Shown here in pieces: positions 19,429 to 30,621 of a stretch of DNA of 64,000 bases (position 1 is the first letter of the stretch; every line of letters starts with the position of its first letter). The notes beneath the pieces were generated by a model, which worked only from the letters and a program-made list of their open reading frames with translations, did not search any database and was not told the DNA's origin. Made by a program: the position numbers and the translations under genes. This DNA comes from Kordiimonas marina (lineage in GTDB: Bacteria; Pseudomonadota; Alphaproteobacteria; Sphingomonadales; Kordiimonadaceae): NCBI RefSeq assembly GCF_023006325.1, contig NZ_JAINDF010000006.1, positions 62,001 to 126,000 on the forward strand. The letters run 5' to 3'.

Positions 19429-19734
19429 TTAATTTGCTACATCTAATATATATTGGAAGAAGGACCTCACGGGCTGCTTCTGGCGACTTCCAATGATGAT
19501 ATCCGAACCACCCTTGGCAAAAAGCTTGCCAAGCTGACTGTCGGTTAGGTCAGAATGAATGATATCCGTGAGATATCTCTTGAGTGCTTTTCGGTCTTCT
19601 GGAGCCATGCCTGAAAGCATGCTTTGGAGCTCTTCTTCGAAGGAAAGCCCTAGAAATCCAAAATCCTGATGGAACCCGCGGCAAAACCGGAACCATACCT
19701 CAGGTGCTTTAGTAATCGGGTCTTTCGCCGTCAC
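19429..19734 (-). CDS. Small orphan protein at the end of the ceramide-synthase operon
   Basis: 101 residues, soluble and helical. The GTG start overlaps the TGA stop of the upstream gene (GTGA), so it is translationally coupled. Base composition is visibly lower in GC than its neighbours, suggesting recent arrival. The pattern FHQDFGFLGLSFEEEL followed by a helical segment and SDLTDSQLGKLF recalls contact-dependent-inhibition immunity proteins of the CdiI type, but I cannot confirm that from sequence alone. No toxin gene is next to it. It may equally be an operon-specific accessory protein. Confidence 0.65.
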   Translation of the reverse strand: MTAKDPITKAPEVWFRFCRGFHQDFGFLGLSFEEELQSMLSGMAPEDRKALKRYLTDIIHSDLTDSQLGKLFAKGGSDIIIGSRQKQPVRSFFQYILDVAN

Positions 19735-20867
19735 GCAATCGCCTTCTCATAAACCCGGTAGGTTTTATAGACCTTGCAGCCGATTTCTTCGAGGATGGCG
19801 TTCATGCCGTCATTGTCTTCGAGGATCCAGCCGAGCTCGCCGAAGGTGGCGCCGCGGTCGACGACGTTTTTCTGGCTGACCTGGATCATCCACATGGCCA
19901 TGGCCGCACCCAAGGGGCCTTTCTGGAAGCGCTTGCGCACGCCCATCAGCGGCACGCGGCAGCGGTCTTCCTTGCCGTTCAGCATCCGGTACAGCAGTTT
20001 GACCAGCTTGATCGGGCCGATCTTGCCGTCGAGGTCGCGGATCTTGTGGTTCACGTCCGGGATGGTCAGCATGAAGGCGACCGGTTCGCCGTCATATTCG
20101 CACAGCATGGTGCGGTAGGGCTTCACCACCGGTTTCAGCGCCTTGGCGCCGTGTTCTACCTCGGCCTCAGTGAAGGGCACATAGCCCCAGTTGTCCGACC
20201 AGGCTTCGTTATAGATGTCGAGGACGGTTTTCACTTCCTCGTCGAAATTCTTCATGTCGATCTCACGCAGGGTGAGGCGCTTGTTCTTCTCCGCCATCTT
20301 GACGATGCGGCCCGCGCGTTCCGGCGCGGGTTTCAGGAGGTCCAGCTCATAGGCGAACATGTCCTTGGCTTTATCGAAGCCTTGCGCCTTGATCCAGCCG
20401 TCATACTGCGGGCGGCCGTGGGGCATCATGAACACAGGCGGGGTGTTGAAGCCGTCCACCAGCGTGCCGACTTCCTCAGCGGATGAGAAGGACCACGGCC
20501 CCTGCATCCGAACCATGCCGCGCTCCTTGAGCCAGGCTTCCGCGGTTTCGAGGAGCGCGTCGGCCACTTCCTCATCCAGCGCTTCGAAGTGACCGAAATG
20601 ACCGAGGTTGGGGCCCCACTTTTCCTGCGCGAGGCTGTCGATCTGTGCCGAGATGCGGCCGACGGGCACGCCGTCCCGCTCCGCGACCCACATCTGCACC
20701 TCAGCGTGCTGGAAGTAGGGGTTTTTGCTGGCCTGCAGCACATCCATCCGTTCCATCATCAAGGGCTGGATCCAGTTCGGATCGTCCTTATAGACCGCGC
20801 GGGTGGCGTTCACGAAGGCCTTGATGCCGGATTTATCGGTGACTTTACGGATGGTTACAGTACTCAC
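19731..20867 (-). CDS. cerS: GNAT-fold N-acyltransferase, probable bacterial ceramide synthase (bCerS)
   Basis: A 378-residue protein related to the large GNAT-like family often mis-annotated as acetyltransferase or dATP pyrophosphohydrolase. Visible blocks are NWIQPLMMERMDVLQ, WVAERDGVPVGRISAQID (the acyl-CoA-binding beta strand), MQGPWSFSSAEEVGTLVDGF and the C-terminal GELGWILEDNDGMN. In Caulobacter crescentus a member of this family is the bacterial ceramide synthase, which N-acylates 3-oxo-sphinganine before reduction. The assignment rests on that family resemblance plus the spt-acp-reductase-ligase operon 6 kb away, matching the Caulobacter arrangement. GTG start, with AGGGGAA upstream. 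It is downstream of csaA (66-base gap) in the lptG operon. Confidence 0.7.
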   Translation of the reverse strand: MSTVTIRKVTDKSGIKAFVNATRAVYKDDPNWIQPLMMERMDVLQASKNPYFQHAEVQMWVAERDGVPVGRISAQIDSLAQEKWGPNLGHFGHFEALDEEVADALLETAEAWLKERGMVRMQGPWSFSSAEEVGTLVDGFNTPPVFMMPHGRPQYDGWIKAQGFDKAKDMFAYELDLLKPAPERAGRIVKMAEKNKRLTLREIDMKNFDEEVKTVLDIYNEAWSDNWGYVPFTEAEVEHGAKALKPVVKPYRTMLCEYDGEPVAFMLTIPDVNHKIRDLDGKIGPIKLVKLLYRMLNGKEDRCRVPLMGVRKRFQKGPLGAAMAMWMIQVSQKNVVDRGATFGELGWILEDNDGMNAILEEIGCKVYKTYRVYEKAIA

Positions 20868-21279: not shown

Positions 21280-22824
21280 TCAGTCTCCGGAAGGTTGGGG
21301 GCGGATGAGGCGGCCGAGCTTGCCCAGCGCCGTGGCGTCCGTGTCCGTCAGGCCATGGCGCACCACAAGCCCCAGCGTGAGCATAAGCCCAAGGAGGGCG
21401 GCAATAAGACCGTAAGGCGCCGGCCAGTGGTTGCTGGCGGGGATCAGCGCGATCATCCCGGCGGAAAGGAGCGCCGACAGCGCCAGCGGGCGCAGGGTGC
21501 CCCTGTCATAGGGCCACAGGCGGAAGAGGGCAGCAGCCTCGATAAGGCTGAGGAGCGCGGTGACATTGAGGCCAACCGCGGCGGCGATGGCGGCGCCGGT
21601 CACACCGTGCGCGGGGATCATAAGCGCGCTGACGATCAGGAGCGCTACGATACCCGCAAGGCCGTTCAGCGCGGCGAGCAGGCGGTGGCCAAGGGTTTCG
21701 ATGATCGCGGACGACGGGCCGGTCGCAGCCTCGATGACCCGGCCGAGGCACAGGATGGCGATGGCGGCAGCCGCGGCCTGGAACTCCGGCCGCATGGTCG
21801 CGAGAATATCATGTCGCGCGAGCACGAGCGCGGCCCCGAACGGCAGCGCAAACGTCAGGCTGAGGCGGGTGGCGTAGGCATACATGGCGCTGAGGGCTTT
21901 ATGGTCGCCTTCGCCCGCGCGTTCGGCGGCCAGGGGCGCCATGACATACTCGAACGTGGTGCGAACGACTTGAAGCGCACTCGCCACCTTGCGCGCGACG
22001 GCATAATAGCCGCCCGCGGCCGCGCCCGCAGCGCCCGGCAGCATGAAATTGAGCACCATCACCGGGAATTCGCTGAACAGCTTCTTGGTGATGGTCGCCG
22101 GCATCAGCGACAGGCCGGTGGTGCGCAGCTCCTTGGTTGTGGCCCCTGTGATCGGCGCTTTCAGGACTGCTGAGAGGTCGTAATAGCGGGCGATAAGCCG
22201 GAGCGCGAGCAGGGCGGCGAGAATGACGCTGACCAGATGCGCGGCGAACAGGCCGTAGGTGCGGGCACCCAAAAGGCCAAGCGAGACGGCGACGATAAGC
22301 CTCAGCCCCTGCTCATAGAAGATGCGCACCTTGATCTCCGGCCCGAAGGTGCGGCGCGCGCGGATCGCGGCGGTCGCCACCTCCACAAACGTCCAGAAGG
22401 GCAGCACCCAGACATAAAGCCGGATCACGCTGATGAGGTGGGCTTCGTCGGCCTTGGCGGCATTCAGGTGCGGCGCGATCATGGGGGCGAGAAGTGTGGT
22501 CACCAGCGCGATCAGGCAGGATGCCAGAAAGCTGGATTTGAGCGCGGTACCGGTGATGCGACTGGCTTCCGCCTCTCCCGCACGCGGGATGAAGCGCTGG
22601 AGGCTCATCCCCATGCCCAGGTCGGTCACCGTGGTGGCGACGCGGACATAGCTCCACAGCACCGCGAACAGGCCGAAGGTGGCGCTGCCGTAAACCCAGG
22701 TGAAGGCGATGACCGAGCCGACCTCAATGAGCGCGCCCAACCGGCCGAGGAACGCATAGCCCGCGCCACCCGCGACCCGCGCGGTATGGTGGGCGTGGTC
22801 CGGCTGGTTGGCCTCCTCCGTCAT
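21280..22824 (-). CDS. MOP-superfamily polysaccharide/lipid flippase
   Basis: A 514-residue integral membrane protein with about 12-14 hydrophobic segments and the arrangement of oligosaccharide flippases (Wzx/MurJ superfamily): an N-terminal ALIEVGSVIAFTWVYGSATFG helix pair, the FALPFGAALVLARHD segment midway and a Leu/Ala-rich C-terminus. Such proteins flip lipid-linked sugars or other amphipaths across the inner membrane. Its ATG overlaps the lptG stop (ATGA), so the two are translationally coupled. No glycosyltransferases are near; with ceramide genes on both sides, a sphingolipid-derived substrate is worth testing (inference). Confidence 0.85.
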   Translation of the reverse strand: MTEEANQPDHAHHTARVAGGAGYAFLGRLGALIEVGSVIAFTWVYGSATFGLFAVLWSYVRVATTVTDLGMGMSLQRFIPRAGEAEASRITGTALKSSFLASCLIALVTTLLAPMIAPHLNAAKADEAHLISVIRLYVWVLPFWTFVEVATAAIRARRTFGPEIKVRIFYEQGLRLIVAVSLGLLGARTYGLFAAHLVSVILAALLALRLIARYYDLSAVLKAPITGATTKELRTTGLSLMPATITKKLFSEFPVMVLNFMLPGAAGAAAGGYYAVARKVASALQVVRTTFEYVMAPLAAERAGEGDHKALSAMYAYATRLSLTFALPFGAALVLARHDILATMRPEFQAAAAAIAILCLGRVIEAATGPSSAIIETLGHRLLAALNGLAGIVALLIVSALMIPAHGVTGAAIAAAVGLNVTALLSLIEAAALFRLWPYDRGTLRPLALSALLSAGMIALIPASNHWPAPYGLIAALLGLMLTLGLVVRHGLTDTDATALGKLGRLIRPQPSGD

Positions 22825-23993
22825 GGCGGCGGGACTTCCGCGGGCCTCGCGTGCCGGGGTGGTGGCTTACCGCCTTCCTCGGTGTTGAAGAGGACGGCAT
22901 AGCCGAGCAGCATGAACAGGAAGAAGGGCGCCCAGGCGGCCAGGAACGGCGGCGCGACGCCAAATTCGCCCATCGCCAGCATGAAATTGTCGGCGACGAA
23001 GAAGCTGAAGCCTAGCGCCATCCCGAACACCAGGCGGATCGCCAGGCTGCCGGCGCGGTGCACCCCGAAAGCGGCCACAGCGGCCAGAAGCGGCATCAGG
23101 AGCGTGGAGGCGGGCCCAGCGAGCTTCTGCCAGAAGGCGGCCATCAGCTTCTCGGTCGGCTGGCCCTGCGCCTTCAACTGTTTGATCACGCCCCACAGCT
23201 TGAAGAAGGAGACATAGTTCGGGTTGACGTTCAGGGTCAGGAAGCGTTCCGGCTTAATCGGCGTGTTCCAGTCGGCGATCGGGATGATCGTCACCTTGTG
23301 GGTCGCCAAATCCAGGCGCCGCATTTCATGGAGCGTCCATTTGCCGTCCTGATACCAGGCGAAATCGGCCTTCTCGATGGAGGTGAGCTTGCCTTCACCA
23401 TTGCGCATGAACAGCGAGACTTTATCCAGCACCACACGGTTCCTGAGCTGGTTCACCGCTTCGACCAGCACCAGCGTGTTGCCTTCCTTCAGCCACACCC
23501 GGCCGGTGAGGTTGTTGTTGGGCGGCAGGTCGACGGCATAGTCATTGTCCTGCCAGTATTTCAGGTCAGCTGCGGCCTTGACCACCACGGTTTCGTTGAA
23601 GGCGAAATGCGCGATGGCGATCAGGAACGAGGCGAGCCCGAGCGGCAGCAGGATACGGTGCGCCGACAAGCCGATCGCCTTCATCACCACCACTTCGCTG
23701 TGCTGGTTGAGGGTCGCGAGCGTTAGCAAGGTCGCGAGAAGCGCGGTGAAGGGCGCGAACTGGCTGATAAATTCAGGCGCGCGCATGCTGACGTAGGAGA
23801 CCAGTGAAACCCATGTCGCCCCCTGGGCTTTCATGATGTCATCGGTATGGGCCAAGAGGTCCAGAAGCTGGAGCACGGTGATCACCCCGACCAGAATGCC
23901 GAGAAAACGCCCGACATGCAGCCGCACCATATAACGCGCGAGCGTGCGTGACGGCACGACCAGACGGCGGAGCTGGCGTAAAGTTTCCCTCAC
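22821..23993 (-). CDS. lptG: LptG/LptF-type permease (YjgP/YjgQ family)
   Basis: A 390-residue membrane protein of the LptF/LptG family: TM1 at about residues 29-45, then three hydrophobic segments by residue 130, a periplasmic beta-jellyroll (about 140-270, including WLKEGNTLVLVEAVNQLRN) and two C-terminal segments. LptG with LptF and LptB2 extracts lipopolysaccharide from the inner membrane. The GTG start has GGGAGG upstream. Usually lptF sits immediately before lptG; here none is visible and the gene leads a unit with a flippase and the ceramide synthase. It may be the housekeeping LptG with a distant LptF, or a paralogue for another lipid. I call the family confidently, the role less so. 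Confidence 0.85.
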   Translation of the reverse strand: MRETLRQLRRLVVPSRTLARYMVRLHVGRFLGILVGVITVLQLLDLLAHTDDIMKAQGATWVSLVSYVSMRAPEFISQFAPFTALLATLLTLATLNQHSEVVVMKAIGLSAHRILLPLGLASFLIAIAHFAFNETVVVKAAADLKYWQDNDYAVDLPPNNNLTGRVWLKEGNTLVLVEAVNQLRNRVVLDKVSLFMRNGEGKLTSIEKADFAWYQDGKWTLHEMRRLDLATHKVTIIPIADWNTPIKPERFLTLNVNPNYVSFFKLWGVIKQLKAQGQPTEKLMAAFWQKLAGPASTLLMPLLAAVAAFGVHRAGSLAIRLVFGMALGFSFFVADNFMLAMGEFGVAPPFLAAWAPFFLFMLLGYAVLFNTEEGGKPPPRHARPAEVPPP

Positions 23994-24387
23994 AGGCGGG
24001 CCTCCCGGGTGGGAAGGGTAACGTGCGTTGGTTCGGTGTGATGCGTAAAATAGACCATAGGATGGCGCTACACTGGTTCCGGGACGGTTTCAAGGGGCAT
24101 TTGCCTGCGCCTAGGCGTATCGGCGACTTCACGCTTGCGGAGACCTGTGGGTCTCTCTCATGGCGGCGGTGAGGCGGCAGGGGCTTCGAAATCGGTGGGG
24201 CAACATAATTTTGCCACCATCCCCGGGCAAGCAGAGGGGGAGGCCGGGCTCACCCCTAATTGGCGTTTTTCCGACGCTAGGGTTTGAGAAATTGGCCATT
24301 TGCCGCTATGAAGGGGGCATCGTTGCAATAATGTGACGACGTGGCCCCTCATGGGCCTGTTTGTTTATGTGTGGAGCAACACCCGTC
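23994..24387. other. Intergenic region between divergent lipid operons
   Basis: 394 bases between the lptG operon (minus) and the lipid-kinase operon (plus). It should hold both promoters. The only clear structure is a small hairpin, GAGACC/GGTCTC, near 24139-24155. No open frame, tRNA or long repeat is seen. Confidence 0.6.
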
Positions 24388-25380
24388 ATGCAACTCGATA
24401 GGACCAGCATAAAGACCGGCGCGGCCGTTCCGCTTGTCGCTATCATTTCGAATCCGTTGAGCACCAGCAACACGGACCGGATGGAGGGCATCCGCCGTGT
24501 CATCGACGAAAGCGCGAATGTCGTGCATTTCGAGCTGGACGGCATGGAGACGGTTGATGAGGCGCTGCAGCTTTTTGCGCGCGCGAACCCCGCAATTCTG
24601 ATCATCAACGGTGGCGACGGAACCATCGGCGCCGTGCTTGCCGCTATTTTGCACCGCAACCCGTTTGACGTGGTACCGCCGATCGCGTTCCTGCCCGGCG
24701 GCAAAACCAACATGACGGCGGCTGATCTCGGCTATCGCGGCAAGCCCGAAAGGGTGCTCAGGCGTCTTCTGGATATCGCGCAGCGCGGCACCATCGCCAA
24801 GCAACTGGCGACCCGTCATCTGGTGGAGCTTGACCTTGGGGACGGCTCCAACCCGCGCGTCGGCACCTTCTTCGGCACCGCCGGTGTGGTCAAAGGCATC
24901 CATTGGTGCCGCCAGAATGCCTATTCCCGTGGCCTGCCGAACGGTGTGGCCCATTTGGCTGTCGTCGGGAAGCTGCTTTTGTCGGCCTTCGGGGTTGGGC
25001 GGCCGCTGATGGTTTCCGACCCGATGACGGTGACGGTTTTGGGCGGCGGCCGCTTCACAGGCCAGTTTTCCGCGGTGATCAGTACGACGCTCGACCGGCT
25101 TATCCTCGGCCTTAAACCTTACGGCCGTGAAGGCGCGGGCGGTTTGCGCTTTTCCGCGGTGGAAGCGGGCGGCAGCAACCTGATGCGGGCGCTGAAAGGC
25201 CTCGTGACCGGGGCTTACGGCAAGAAAACCATCGACGGCGTTCATGTCCGCCGGGCCAATGAAATCCGCATTGAGGGCACAGACCCGGTTACGCTCGATG
25301 GCGAAATCTATCATCCCAAACCCGGCCGTGCGCTGACGCTCCGGGGTGACCGTCAGCTGACCTTTGTCTCGCTGAAGTAA
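24388..25380 (+). CDS. DAGK-family lipid kinase, candidate ceramide kinase
   Basis: A 330-residue protein with the diacylglycerol-kinase/sphingosine-kinase catalytic fold: the N-terminal strand VAIISNPLST, the nucleotide-binding motif INGGDGTIGA (GGDGT at about 75-79) and the LPGGKTNM segment at about 107-114, in the position of the PxGTxN motif of this family. The C-terminal half is a beta sandwich ending in LDGEIY. No membrane segment. ATG 24388 is chosen as start; TTG 24361 and ATG 24367 lack a ribosome site. In Caulobacter an evolutionarily distinct kinase of this fold near spt (CpgB) phosphorylates ceramide. Sitting here opposite an spt operon, the same role is the best guess; diacylglycerol kinase is the alternative. 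Confidence 0.75.
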   Translation: MQLDRTSIKTGAAVPLVAIISNPLSTSNTDRMEGIRRVIDESANVVHFELDGMETVDEALQLFARANPAILIINGGDGTIGAVLAAILHRNPFDVVPPIAFLPGGKTNMTAADLGYRGKPERVLRRLLDIAQRGTIAKQLATRHLVELDLGDGSNPRVGTFFGTAGVVKGIHWCRQNAYSRGLPNGVAHLAVVGKLLLSAFGVGRPLMVSDPMTVTVLGGGRFTGQFSAVISTTLDRLILGLKPYGREGAGGLRFSAVEAGGSNLMRALKGLVTGAYGKKTIDGVHVRRANEIRIEGTDPVTLDGEIYHPKPGRALTLRGDRQLTFVSLK

Positions 25381-25392
25381 GGGGAGACGGGA

Positions 25393-26331
25393 ATGTCGGA
25401 CCCCACGGCGGCGCTTCACCGCTTTATCCTTCATGAGTGGCAGCGGGATGTCGCGCACGAGGTGATGGCGGCAGCACAGGACATCGCTGCCCGGTATGAG
25501 GGCAGTGTCGCCGGTATCCTGTTTTACGGTTCGTGCCTGCGCACAGGCCAGATCGCCGACAAGATTCTCGATTTTTACGTGATTGTGGACAGCTACCGCG
25601 CAGCATATGCAAGCAGATGGTTGCGTATAGCTAACCGCCTTATTCCGCCTAACGTTTTCTATCATGAAATCGACGCGGGTGGGGTGACTGTGCGGTCCAA
25701 ATATGCGGTGCTGTCGCGCGCGGACCTTGCGTTCCGTACGGGGCCTGAATGCCTGAATGTGTCCGTTTGGGCGCGCTTCTGCCAGCCATGCCTGCTTCTG
25801 CTGCCGCGCGATGAGGCAACCAAAGAGGCCATCGCGGGGGATGTGGCGCAGGCGGCTGTCACGATGATTGGCAACCTGGTTGATCTGAAACCTTCGCTGA
25901 GGCTTTCGCGCCAGCTATGGGTGGCGGCGTTTGAACAGACCTATGCGGCCGAGTTGCGCTCAGAACGCGGCGGCAAGGGCTTGGAAATCTATCTGCTTGA
26001 CCAGGACCGCTATGACCGCATGACGCCCCTGGTGCTTGATGCCCTTGGGCTTGCCCCTGCGGCGGAGAAGAGCGCGAAGCAGCCTGCAAGGCTGAAGCTT
26101 ATCGGTCCGCGCCTTACATGGGCCGCGCGGCGGATCAATGGCAAGGTCATCAGTTTCCTGCGGCTGGTGAAGGCCTCGATGACCTTTGACGGTGGCATCG
26201 ACTATCTGGCCTGGAAGATCCGCCGTCATTCGGGGGTGGAGATTGCTATCACCCCCTGGATGCGGCGCCACCCGGTGCTGGCGGGTGTCAGCCTGTTCTG
26301 GGGCCTTCGTAAAAAAGGCGCGTTCAAATAA
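25393..26331 (+). CDS. Tam41-like nucleotidyltransferase, candidate CDP-lipid synthase
   Basis: 312 residues with a nucleotidyltransferase core. ILFYGSCLRTG (YGS at 45-47) is followed by ILDFYVIVD (Asp60, Asp66), spaced as in mitochondrial CDP-diacylglycerol synthase Tam41. Further on, VRSKYAVLSRADL (Lys103) and a W-x-RFCQPCLLLL stretch mirror the Tam41 pattern KYGVI...DL...W...GR..KP. Tam41 makes CDP-diacylglycerol from phosphatidate and CTP and is unrelated to CdsA. Starts 12 bases after the lipid kinase with AAGGGGAG upstream, so they form an operon. Together they could convert ceramide to ceramide-1-phosphate and then CDP-ceramide. The similarity is by eye and the substrate is inferred. 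Confidence 0.65.
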   Translation: MSDPTAALHRFILHEWQRDVAHEVMAAAQDIAARYEGSVAGILFYGSCLRTGQIADKILDFYVIVDSYRAAYASRWLRIANRLIPPNVFYHEIDAGGVTVRSKYAVLSRADLAFRTGPECLNVSVWARFCQPCLLLLPRDEATKEAIAGDVAQAAVTMIGNLVDLKPSLRLSRQLWVAAFEQTYAAELRSERGGKGLEIYLLDQDRYDRMTPLVLDALGLAPAAEKSAKQPARLKLIGPRLTWAARRINGKVISFLRLVKASMTFDGGIDYLAWKIRRHSGVEIAITPWMRRHPVLAGVSLFWGLRKKGAFK

Positions 26332-26357
26332 AAAAGGCGACCGTCAGGCCGCCTTTT
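26332..26357. terminator. Bidirectional terminator between the kinase operon and spt
   Basis: AAAAGGCG (26332-26339) pairs with CGCCTTTT (26350-26357) around a 10-base loop. T-rich tracts stand on both strands, so it can end both convergent units. Confidence 0.8.
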
Positions 26358-26376: not shown

Positions 26377-27585
26377 TTACGCTTCCGGCTTTAGTTCCAG
26401 ACCAACCTTGTTGGCAGTGATGACGAAGCGCTTGATGATCTCGTCGATCTGCTCGGGCGTATGCAGGGCGTTAATGCTCACGCGCATCAGGAACATGCCA
26501 GCAGGTGTCGCGGGCGGGGCTGCCATATTGGTGTAAACACCTTCCATAAGAAGGTTCTCCCAGAAATGGGTGCCCAGCATGATATCCGGCATATAGACCG
26601 CGATGATCGGGCTTTGGGCTTCCGGCGTCGCCAGGTCGAACCCGGCCTTCTTGAGGCCTGCGTGCAACCGGCGGGCATTTTCCCACAGGTGGGCACGGCG
26701 GTTGCCGCTGCGCTTGATGGCCTCGATCGCCTTGATGGCTGAGGCCACGATGCTCGGCGGCGGGCTCGCGGTAAAGATATAGGGACGGGAGATGAAGCGG
26801 AGCACGTCGAATTTCGGATGGTTCGACACGGCAAAACCGCCAACTGTCCCCACCGATTTCGAGAAGGTACCGACATAGAAGTCGACCAAATGCTCAACGC
26901 CCAGCGCTTCGGCGACGCCGCGGCCGTTTTCACCGCAGAAGCCCATGGAATGCGCTTCGTCAACCAGCGTCATGCAGCCGTATTTCTTGGCGACTTCAAG
27001 GAGTTCCTTGAGGGGCGCCGCATCACCGAGCATTGAATAGATGCCTTCGACGACAACCAGCTTGCCGGCGTCTTCGGGCAGACGCTTCAGCCGGCGTTCC
27101 ATCTGCTCGACGTTATTATGCTTGAAGCGGACAATGGTGGCATTGCCCATGGAGCAGCCGTCATAGATGGAGGCGTGGCTGTCGGCATCGATGATGACAT
27201 AGTCGTCTTTGCCGCCCAGCGCCGAGATCATGCCCAGGTTGGCCTGATAGCCGGTCGAGAAGACCATGCAGTGTTCCATGCCGTAAAAGTCGGCGATGGT
27301 CGCTTCGAGAAGCTTATGGTCGGCATAGGTGCCGTTGAGAGAACGCGAACCGGTGGTGCCGGTGCCGAACCTGTCGATGGCATCCTTGGCAGCGGCCATG
27401 GCCTCTTCATTGAAGGTCATGCCCATATAGTTGTTGGTACCGGCCAAAATGGTCCGGCGTCCGTCGATCATGGCCTCGGTTTCGGAGAGGATTTCATCCA
27501 TCACCACCGTGAAGGGGTCGGCTTTTTCAAACGGCAGCGACGCACGCAGCGCCACCATGGAATCAAATTTGTCCAATAAATCCAC
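26377..27585 (-). CDS. spt: Serine palmitoyltransferase
   Basis: A 402-residue PLP enzyme of the alpha-oxoamine synthase family, condensing L-serine with an acyl thioester to 3-oxo-sphinganine, the committed step of sphingolipid synthesis. Key residues: His137 in DADSHAS (stacks on PLP), Asp209 in LVDEAHSMG, and the PLP lysine Lys243 in GTFSKSVGTVGGF. GTGTTGSR near 75-80 is conserved across the family. KBL and ALAS are relatives, but the partner genes settle the choice: an ACP starts five bases upstream, followed by the reductase and acyl-AMP ligase in the order known for Caulobacter ceramide synthesis. It is the last gene of its operon and ends at a bidirectional terminator. Confidence 0.9.
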   Translation of the reverse strand: MDLLDKFDSMVALRASLPFEKADPFTVVMDEILSETEAMIDGRRTILAGTNNYMGMTFNEEAMAAAKDAIDRFGTGTTGSRSLNGTYADHKLLEATIADFYGMEHCMVFSTGYQANLGMISALGGKDDYVIIDADSHASIYDGCSMGNATIVRFKHNNVEQMERRLKRLPEDAGKLVVVEGIYSMLGDAAPLKELLEVAKKYGCMTLVDEAHSMGFCGENGRGVAEALGVEHLVDFYVGTFSKSVGTVGGFAVSNHPKFDVLRFISRPYIFTASPPPSIVASAIKAIEAIKRSGNRRAHLWENARRLHAGLKKAGFDLATPEAQSPIIAVYMPDIMLGTHFWENLLMEGVYTNMAAPPATPAGMFLMRVSINALHTPEQIDEIIKRFVITANKVGLELKPEA

Positions 27586-27590
27586 GATAC

Positions 27591-27836
27591 TCAGCCTTCG
27601 TTGACGATTTTCTCGACGGCGTCCGCCACATGCTCGATGGTTTCAAGGTCGGGCAGCATATTCAGCGGCAGGACGATGTCGAACTCGTCCTCGATTTCGG
27701 CCACAAGGTCCATGACGGTAAGCGAATCCAACTGCAGGTCAGACGCAAATGTAGTCTGCGGGCCCAATTCTACGCTGCGCTTGTTAAGCGGCGCAATTAA
27801 TTCGTAAATCTTTTCAAGGGTCTGGGTGCTGGCCAT
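27591..27836 (-). CDS. acpR: Acyl carrier protein dedicated to sphingolipid synthesis
   Basis: An 81-residue acyl carrier protein. The phosphopantetheine site is Ser38 in LQLDSLTVMDLV, followed by the acidic recognition helix EIEDEFD. It differs from housekeeping AcpP (no fab genes around) and lies five bases upstream of spt. In Caulobacter the equivalent AcpR is loaded by a dedicated synthetase and supplies the acyl chain to Spt; the same is inferred here. The gap to the upstream reductase is 69 bases. Confidence 0.88.
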   Translation of the reverse strand: MASTQTLEKIYELIAPLNKRSVELGPQTTFASDLQLDSLTVMDLVAEIEDEFDIVLPLNMLPDLETIEHVADAVEKIVNEG

Positions 27837-27905: not shown

Positions 27906-28862
27906 TCATAAAAGCCCGTTTTTTCGGTACCAATCCATGGTGTCCTTTAAACCGGTCTTGAGGTCGAATTGCGGCGACCAGTTGGCGAGGATGGGGCGGC
28001 GTGCGCTCCTGACGGTCCAGTCATTATGGCACAGGTAGCGCGCGGTCGGCAGCGTCAGCATCGCCGGGCGCCGGATCATGCTGGCGAAAAGCCCGTTGAT
28101 GGCGCCGAGCGTGCCAAGCACGGGGAAGGGCACCGGCAGGATACGTGGCCGCCTGTCTTCCTTGCTGCCGAGGGCTTCGGCGACGTCCTTAAGCTGATAG
28201 CCGCTGGGCTTCATGTCGTCGATTTCATAGGTCGCGGTGCCGTGTCCGCCTTCGGCCAGAATGGTAAGCGCGCGGGCGAGGTCCTGCGCATGGATCATCG
28301 AGAAGCGATTTTTGCTACTGCCGGGCGCGGGCAGCAGGCCAAGCTTGCTGGCCTTCAGAAGCTTCAGGATTTCCTTGTCGCCTGGGCCGTAAATGGCGGG
28401 CGGGCGCACATTGACCCACGAGAAGGGCCAGCGGCGGGCGCTGAGCGCCAGTTCCGCGGCGGCCTTGCTGGCGCCATAGTGGGACAGACGCGGTTCGCGG
28501 GCGGCAAGGCTGGAGACATTGACCACATGGCGGACGCCGTTCTCGGCGGCTGCTTCCAGGACCAGCTTGGTCCCGCCCAGGTTCACATCGAAGAAGGTAT
28601 CGCGGTTGAGCGCTTTGGTGAGCCCTGCCACATGCATGAGCGTGTCGGCGTCGCGGGTGAGTTCCAGAAGCGCGATCTTGTCGGAAAGGTCCCCAGGCAC
28701 CCAGGTGACGCCGTCGCGGGCTTCCTGCGGGCGGCGGGTCAGCGCACGGACTTCATGGCCTGCGTCCAGGAGGCTGTCGATGACATGCCCGCCCAGGAAA
28801 CCCGTAGCGCCCGTAAGGGCAATGACCTTAGCGGGCGCTTGAGAGGTGTTTTTGTCGCTCAT
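27906..28862 (-). CDS. cerR: NAD(P)-dependent SDR/epimerase, probable ceramide reductase
   Basis: A 318-residue extended short-chain dehydrogenase. The dinucleotide site GATGFLGGH is at residues 18-26 and the catalytic Tyr129/Lys133 pair lies in SHYGASKAA, preceded by NVSSLAAR. In the Caulobacter pathway the enzyme in this position reduces 3-oxo-ceramide to dihydroceramide. That role is assigned from the operon context, since the sequence alone would only say NAD-dependent epimerase/dehydratase. It starts four bases after the stop of the acyl-AMP ligase gene. Confidence 0.8.
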   Translation of the reverse strand: MSDKNTSQAPAKVIALTGATGFLGGHVIDSLLDAGHEVRALTRRPQEARDGVTWVPGDLSDKIALLELTRDADTLMHVAGLTKALNRDTFFDVNLGGTKLVLEAAAENGVRHVVNVSSLAAREPRLSHYGASKAAAELALSARRWPFSWVNVRPPAIYGPGDKEILKLLKASKLGLLPAPGSSKNRFSMIHAQDLARALTILAEGGHGTATYEIDDMKPSGYQLKDVAEALGSKEDRRPRILPVPFPVLGTLGAINGLFASMIRRPAMLTLPTARYLCHNDWTVRSARRPILANWSPQFDLKTGLKDTMDWYRKNGLL

Positions 28863-28866
28863 GGTG

Positions 28867-30621
28867 CTAACTGGCTAAAGCCTGCAAATGACCGGAAAGA
28901 TACTGGATGCGGGCCTTCGAACGGCTCAGCTTGCCGGAAGACGTGCGCGGCAGCGACCGTGGCGACACCAGTTCGACCATGCAGGTGATGCCGGTCGATT
29001 TCTGGATATGCTTGCGCAAATCGTCGACAAACTTGGCGCGCTCGGCCAGGTCCGACAGGCGGCACTGGGCCAGGATAAGCGGAACTTCCTCAGCATTCTC
29101 ACCGGGGATCGAAATCGCGGCAATGTCACCGTTCTTGACGCCGGGGAGCTGCTCGGCAGCCCACTCGATGTCCTGCGGCCAGTGGTTGCGGCCGTTGACG
29201 ATGATCATGTCCTTGGCGCGGCCGACGATGAAGATGCAGCCGTCTTTCATGTAACCCATGTCACCGGTGTCCAGCCAGCCTTCGGGGCTGAGGACAGCGC
29301 GGGTGGTTTCCGGGTCATTGAAATATTCGCGCATGACCGACGTGCCGCGCACATAAACGCGGCCGACTTTGCCCTCAGTGAGAGCAACATCGTCTTCATT
29401 GCGGATTTCAATGTCATACTCTGGCAAGGGACGGCCACAGTTGACCACCTCGCGCAGGCGGGCGTCGCCGCCTTCGGCCTTGTTCACCAGGACGTGGCGG
29501 TCACCGACCAGAAGCGCTTCTTCGACCATGTCGATCTGGACGCCTTTGCCTATTTCGCCAAAGCTGACGCCCAGGGTACATTCAGCCAGGCCGTAGCTTG
29601 GCAGGAAGGCGGTCTCTTTGAAGCCGATTTCCTTGAACGTGTTGTGGAAGGCGCGCAGGACGTCCGGGCGGATCATGTCACCGCCGATACCGGCAACACG
29701 CCAGCTCGACAGGTCCAGGTCTTCCAGTGCGTTGGCGCGCAGGGACGCGCGGCGCGTGCAGATGTCGAAGCCGAAGGTCGGGCTGTAGGCTACCGTGCCT
29801 TTGTTCTGGCTCATCACCCGGAGCCAGCTTAAGGGGCGGCGGGCGAATTCCTCAGTCGGGATAAAATCGACCGACACCTGACAGGTCAGGGTGGTCAGGA
29901 ACGTGCCGACAAGGCCCATGTCATGGTAGAAGGGCAGCCAGGAAACGCAGCGGTCGGTTTCCTGCATGCGGACACCGTGATAGCCCATGCCATGCGTGTT
30001 GGCCAGGAGCGACCGGTGGGTTACGGCGACGCCGTGCGGGAAGCGGGTGCTGCCTGACGAATATTGCAGGTAAGCAAGGTCGTCCGGTTCAGGCAGGCGC
30101 AGGTCGCCATTGCCTTTCGCTGCCAGGAAGTCGGCGCAGGAACCGGTGAAGCGCAGGTCAAGGTCCTGCGTTGCTTCATCAACGATGTCTTTCATGAAAG
30201 AAGGTGCCATCAGGCCGCCGGCGAGACAGCTTTGCATCTGCATGCGAAGCTGCGAGACATAGCCTTCCTTGCCACCGAAGGAGGTCGGCAGGGGCAGTGG
30301 TACCGGCAGGACGCTGGCATATTGGCAGCCAACGAAGAAAGTCGCGAAATCGGCGCTGGTTTCGGCGATGAGGGCGATCCGGTCGCCTTTTTCAAAGCCC
30401 ATGCCCACCAATTTACGGCCGATTGCTTCAGCACGATCACGCAGTTTTGCCCACGGCAGTGCCTCAACGAGGTCGCCACGGGCATTATAAAAGTTAGCAC
30501 CGCGTACGCCCTTCGCGGCATACTCGATGGCATCAACAAGCGTATCAAAATCCGAGAACCGCCGAGGCAGCGTCGGATCAAGCGTAGGAGTCACTATAGT
30601 CATTGCGTCGGCTTCAACCAT
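28867..30621 (-). CDS. acsR: Fatty acyl-AMP ligase / acyl-ACP synthetase of the ceramide operon
   Basis: A 584-residue adenylate-forming enzyme of the FAAL type. The AMP-binding motif YLQYSSGSTRFPHGVAVTH is near residues 189-207, with SYGLAECTLGV, GWLDTGDMGYM and the C-terminal lysine region SSGKLSR also visible. FAALs activate fatty acids as acyl-AMP and transfer them to a carrier protein rather than to CoA. The partner ACP is two genes downstream, so it should load AcpR for Spt. First gene of the operon (ligase, reductase, ACP, spt); start at 30621 with GGGG six bases upstream, ATG 30603 being an alternative. A candidate small RNA and its terminator lie just upstream. Confidence 0.87.
   Translation of the reverse strand: MVEADAMTIVTPTLDPTLPRRFSDFDTLVDAIEYAAKGVRGANFYNARGDLVEALPWAKLRDRAEAIGRKLVGMGFEKGDRIALIAETSADFATFFVGCQYASVLPVPLPLPTSFGGKEGYVSQLRMQMQSCLAGGLMAPSFMKDIVDEATQDLDLRFTGSCADFLAAKGNGDLRLPEPDDLAYLQYSSGSTRFPHGVAVTHRSLLANTHGMGYHGVRMQETDRCVSWLPFYHDMGLVGTFLTTLTCQVSVDFIPTEEFARRPLSWLRVMSQNKGTVAYSPTFGFDICTRRASLRANALEDLDLSSWRVAGIGGDMIRPDVLRAFHNTFKEIGFKETAFLPSYGLAECTLGVSFGEIGKGVQIDMVEEALLVGDRHVLVNKAEGGDARLREVVNCGRPLPEYDIEIRNEDDVALTEGKVGRVYVRGTSVMREYFNDPETTRAVLSPEGWLDTGDMGYMKDGCIFIVGRAKDMIIVNGRNHWPQDIEWAAEQLPGVKNGDIAAISIPGENAEEVPLILAQCRLSDLAERAKFVDDLRKHIQKSTGITCMVELVSPRSLPRTSSGKLSRSKARIQYLSGHLQALAS

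Follow-up and report, generated by a model that had tools for sequence, protein, structure and literature searches.

Gene organization of the locus

In the stretch of DNA analysed here (64,000 nucleotides, referred to as the window), the genes for a lipid kinase and a nucleotidyltransferase converge with the gene for serine palmitoyltransferase (spt). An earlier note made from the sequence had described both reading frames, the 12-base gap between them and their convergence with spt, and all three features were found exactly where it had placed them. On balance, the pair probably corresponds to CpgB-CpgC, a module by which bacteria make phosphosphingolipids, and operates via a CDP-ceramide route. 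The features of the locus are the following.

19731..20867, minus strand: GNAT-fold protein, candidate bacterial ceramide synthase (PF00583, E = 2e-4; homologue in 58 of 80 loci)
21280..22824, minus strand: flippase of the polysaccharide-export type, candidate lipid flippase (PF01943, E = 6.7e-12; 29 of 80 loci)
22821..23993, minus strand: LptG-type permease, candidate sphingolipid exporter, LptG2-like (TIGR04408, 288.9 bits, cut-off 240)
24388..25380, plus strand: DAGK-fold lipid kinase, CpgB-like, probable ceramide kinase (PF00781, E = 2.3e-13; GGDGT, PGGKTN and DGE motifs)
25393..26331, plus strand: Tam41-fold nucleotidyltransferase, CpgC-like, probable CTP:ceramide-1-phosphate cytidylyltransferase (AlphaFold model, PDB matches, profile of relatives)
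26332..26357, no strand assigned: terminator-like stem-loop AAAAAAGGCG...CGCCTTTT between the convergent genes (folding z -3.2)
26377..27585, minus strand: serine palmitoyltransferase, spt (NCBIfam NF047599, 597.8 bits, cut-off 500; NF047603, 604 bits)
27591..27836, minus strand: acyl carrier protein, AcpR-like (PF00550, E = 1.7e-11)
27906..28862, minus strand: NAD-dependent epimerase-fold reductase, CerR-like (PF01370, E = 2.1e-25; Caulobacter-like order)
28867..30621, minus strand: fatty acyl-AMP ligase, AasR-like (NCBIfam NF006624, 811 bits, cut-off 600)

The kinase gene (ATG at 24388, stop at 25380, GGDGT near 24610) codes for 330 amino acids and forms an operon with the nucleotidyltransferase gene, whose 312-residue product contains the segments YGSCLR...LDFYVIVD and SKYAVLSRADL. 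The stem-loop that follows the operon is missing from the consensus list. Upstream of the kinase gene, at the position corresponding to 23994-24387, two close relatives (L066 and L067) have an additional LptF/G-type gene together with a DUF2141 gene, both located between the LptG-type gene and the kinase gene. Neither of these is present in the window; further LptF/G genes are located elsewhere in the genome.

As read directly from the sequence, the kinase has a DAGK catalytic domain with the GGDG motif, lacks the eukaryotic CxxxCxxC motif and contains a single cysteine in its 330 residues. Its scores lie far under the cut-offs of YegS-type NCBIfam models. CpgB of Caulobacter phosphorylates ceramide in vitro, and mutants without cpgB have unaltered phosphatidic acid (PMC10331486). 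Published work on CpgB and the gene order support the assignment of the window protein as a putative ceramide kinase, in line with the ceramide-1-phosphate-forming kinase that the earlier note had envisaged.

Fold and active site of the 312-residue protein

On its own, the 312-residue protein matched no family in Pfam or NCBIfam, and a search of its genome with PF09139 gave no match. An AlphaFold model made with 28 homologues reached a pLDDT of 89, and its top match in the PDB was a CTP-bound Tam41 of bacterial origin (7ecd; Foldseek E = 1.2e-7, VIA Z 18.5), with 223 residues aligned at an rmsd of 3.3 and the residues past about 265 lying outside the match. Fission-yeast Tam41 followed with Z scores of 15.0 (6ig4) and 14.7, and the next family, aminoglycoside nucleotidyltransferases, reached a Z of 7.6. 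The structure prediction that had been suggested as a check thus returned Tam41 as the best solved match, with the nucleotidyltransferase and winged-helix parts that make up the Tam41 fold.

At the sequence level, a profile of 20 relatives matched fission-yeast Tam41 (E = 3.7e-5), and PF09139 was matched by 13 of these 20 distant relatives (best E = 2.5e-9). As the window protein itself stays below Pfam detection, the relation to PF09139 becomes visible only via its relatives and the structure. The profile match aligned K-Y-x-V, R-F-x-x-P and [ED]-x-R with fission-yeast Tam41; YGS and the following D aligned in a separate weak segment which scores nothing alone. D60 is the sole invariant acid of the usual triad (28 of 28 homologues). 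The second and third acid sites are occupied by Y62 (26 of 28) and K103 (28 of 28), the strand carrying K103 being a presumed placement of the third site. This pattern agrees with Tam41, which retains only one of the three canonical acids (PMC11646218). Tam41/Mmp37 enzymes are characterized by a basic, amphipathic membrane helix at the C-terminus. In the 28 homologues here the last 60 residues carry a net charge of +5 to +13, and the strongest amphipathic window lies at residues 240-257, not at the extreme C-terminus. Model and sequence patterns together indicate that the 312-residue protein is a Tam41-fold relative which probably works like Tam41, and the resemblance noticed earlier is well supported.

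Conservation of the gene pair

Homologues of the 312-residue protein were found in all 30 genomes of the family and in 34 of 289 genomes of the class, a distribution far from chance. The named loci are the best 80 from a profile scan of genome contigs; they include Kordiimonas, Eilatimonas and other Kordiimonadaceae, which places the window among the Kordiimonadales (Alphaproteobacteria), and extend to Nitrospirota, Deltaproteobacteria and Calditrichota, with no Caulobacter locus among these best 80. The CpgC-like gene is immediately preceded by a kinase gene in 77 of the 78 named loci with upstream room and in 53 of 56 other loci, and spt lies next to it in convergent orientation in 53 of 77 named loci. 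The phylum-wide sample yielded one further pair of kinase and CpgC-like genes, in a proteobacterium of more remote relationship (L146).

Lipid A genes in genomes with and without CpgC

Neither LpxC nor LpxB was detected above threshold in any of 23 Kordiimonadaceae genomes, that of the window included (one genome, G010, has a single sub-threshold LpxC fragment). The organism and 22 other Kordiimonadaceae thus apparently lack lipid A, yet LptF/LptG-type permeases are present in the family. Among genomes from outside the family, 6 of 22 that encode CpgC have LpxC, versus 12 of 15 that do not encode CpgC (Fisher p = 0.003, uncorrected for relatedness, the 15 genomes having been picked roughly in list order). 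Several CpgC genomes have one LptF/LptG pair only, which lies within about 10 kb of the CpgC locus.

In a Sphingomonas lacking LPS, sphingolipids are essential (PMC11324152). Given that LpxC and LpxB are missing from 23 of 23 family genomes, extension from Sphingomonas suggests that a phosphosphingolipid may stand in for lipid A in Kordiimonadaceae.

Predicted reaction

From the genes, their order, the fold, the active-site pattern and the coupling of the two genes we infer substrates, product, head group and transport as follows. (Dihydro)ceramide would be supplied by the neighbouring spt, acp, cerR, aasR and GNAT genes, and the kinase would convert it to ceramide-1-phosphate. The Tam41-fold enzyme would then transfer CMP from CTP onto ceramide-1-phosphate, yielding CDP-ceramide and pyrophosphate. 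In a further enzyme's reaction an alcohol head group would replace CMP to give the phosphosphingolipid, the outward carriage of which may be aided by the flippase and the Lpt-type permease. It is likely that ceramide-1-phosphate is the substrate and CDP-ceramide the product of the 312-residue enzyme.

Candidate consumers of CDP-ceramide

CpgC-like loci are of two types, with and without a gene for a CDP-alcohol phosphotransferase. In Nitrospirota, deltaproteobacteria and Dongia-like bacteria it often immediately precedes the kinase gene; the loci of Kordiimonadales and Sphingomonadales have neither the phosphotransferase nor a CpgD-like cytidylyltransferase. Of the 80 loci, 16 encode the cytidylyltransferase, always together with the phosphotransferase.

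The earlier note had advised searching the same region for a CDP-alcohol phosphatidyltransferase. The window encodes no such dedicated enzyme, and no candidate from the rest of the genome follows CpgC across the family. Four CDP-alcohol phosphotransferases are encoded in the genome: PgsA next to uvrC, PssA next to psd, and a further two on contig C20. The C20 locus, with its two transferases, a cytidylyltransferase and INO1, was considered as the missing partner and rejected, as only 11 of the 30 family genomes hold a close homologue of one transferase and the other is confined to its own genome, versus 30 of 30 for CpgC.

The C20 cluster (L064:5711-15255, contig C20:348710-358254) comprises an inositol-3-phosphate synthase, the two CDP-alcohol phosphotransferases, one of which is considerably extended at its N-terminus, and a gene resembling inositol-phosphate cytidylyltransferases. 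It also encodes a flippase and a transporter similar to HpnN. The best database matches of this locus are mostly inositol enzymes, and a possible function is the synthesis of an inositol lipid or polymer.

Genomes G001, G028 and G029, complete ones among them, encode two CDP-alcohol phosphotransferases in all, by score and size apparently PgsA and PssA. It follows that PgsA and PssA may accept CDP-ceramide, that an enzyme from a different protein family may consume it, or that CpgC may act differently. For the first option, a tentative scheme in Kordiimonadaceae without lipid A, for which we see perhaps one chance in several, is that CDP-ceramide is a branch-point used by the housekeeping enzymes: PssA, followed by Psd, would form ceramide phosphoserine and ceramide phosphoethanolamine, or PgsA would form ceramide phosphoglycerol. 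If so, a single head-group machinery would serve both phospholipids and LPS-replacing sphingolipids.

If CpgC acts differently, it might itself add the head group, joining ceramide-1-phosphate to glycerate or phosphoglycerate by nucleotide hydrolysis or via activated glycerate, with no free CDP-ceramide being released. Such a mechanism would account for the want of a dedicated CDP-alcohol phosphotransferase tracking CpgC in the family, and cpgB and cpgC are the only genes identified so far without which the first phosphoglycerate is not added (PMC11324152, PMC12275187). However, fold and active site fit a family known for nucleotidyl transfer, and the alignment gave no sign of a second active site; we regard direct head-group addition as rather unlikely.

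CDP-diacylglycerol and nucleotide specificity

CdsA was detected in all 43 genomes tested, that of the window included (C19:30913-31665), so that the supply of CDP-diacylglycerol (CDP-DAG) is independent of the 312-residue enzyme. A role of this protein as the housekeeping CDP-DAG synthase was accordingly set aside. The presence of CdsA also speaks against a related explanation, in which the Tam41-fold enzyme would convert phosphatidic acid to ordinary CDP-DAG, while the kinase would act on diacylglycerol to recycle it. The characterised Tam41 enzymes, one bacterial enzyme included, do yield CDP-DAG (PMC7018664, PMC11646218), and the kinase has a DAGK_cat domain. Yet spt stands beside the pair in most loci, and in Caulobacter phosphatidic acid is unaltered without cpgB, whereas cpgC (CC_1161) is required for the first addition of phosphoglycerate to ceramide and its loss removes ceramide phosphoglycerate (PMC11324152). 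Diacylglycerol-based synthesis thus appears improbable. With the kinase gene directly upstream, spt adjacent and CdsA present throughout, the product of the kinase is the likely substrate of the 312-residue enzyme.

That CpgC nucleotidylates ceramide-1-phosphate with a nucleotide other than CTP, e.g. UTP or GTP, is the least probable alternative: the nucleotide was left open as NTP/NDP in the literature (PMC11324152) and fold alone does not reveal base specificity, but the closest solved relatives, 7ecd and 6ig2, were crystallised with CTP.

Significance

The idea at the centre of the earlier note had already been published as a proposal: a CDP-DAG synthase domain was noted in CC_1161 and an NDP-activated ceramide was suggested in 2024 (PMC11324152). 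A bacterial Tam41-type enzyme acting on sphingolipids, which that note regarded as new, is hence not without precedent, and the structure of a bacterial Tam41 (7ecd) has been solved (Kimura 2022, as cited in PMC11646218). The mechanism of CpgC is called unidentified in recent pathway papers (PMC12275187, PMC13228409). No paper using the term CDP-ceramide was found in the open-access literature, a scope outside which most subscription journals fall.

CpgC belongs to a known pathway for an LPS-substituting lipid, and the predicted structure argues that it uses CTP in the manner of Tam41, with ceramide-1-phosphate as the substrate. New here are the finding that within the family the pair is not accompanied by a CDP-alcohol phosphotransferase of its own and the absence of LpxC and LpxB from 23 genomes. 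The former adds a puzzle, namely a pair without a dedicated head-group transferase; the latter defines a setting in which the CpgC-dependent lipid may be structurally essential.

Comparison with known systems

The Caulobacter region comprises CC_1160 (cpgB, ceramide kinase), CC_1161 (cpgC), CC_1162 (spt) and ceramide genes up to CC_1165; it also encodes a flippase and a second set of LptC, LptF and LptG (PMC11324152). The window pair appears to match CpgB-CpgC (CCNA_01218-01219 / CC_1160-1161), an orthology that rests on gene order and published annotation: kinase and nucleotidyltransferase are followed by spt, acpR, cerR and aasR in equal order, and LptF/G-type and flippase genes are close by in both. 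Unlike in Caulobacter, the window has no cpgA-like CDP-alcohol phosphotransferase gene and no cpgD-like cytidylyltransferase gene. Of the full CPG2 pathway (CpgA-D), these two components have only distant homologues, at contig C20, and a single genome of the 30 in the family has the CpgA-like one at full length.

Bacterial Tam41 of Firmicutes (7ecd) shares the fold of the 312-residue protein; identity is about 15%, and bacterial Tam41 makes CDP-DAG, whereas the substrate here would be a sphingolipid phosphate. Mitochondrial Tam41/Mmp37 (PF09139; 6ig2, 6ig4) has in common with it the fold, the single acidic residue and the K-Y-x-V and R-F-x-x-P motifs. Finally, CdsA (PF01148) resembles it in the proposed type of reaction, between CTP and a lipid phosphate, but is an unrelated multi-pass membrane protein.
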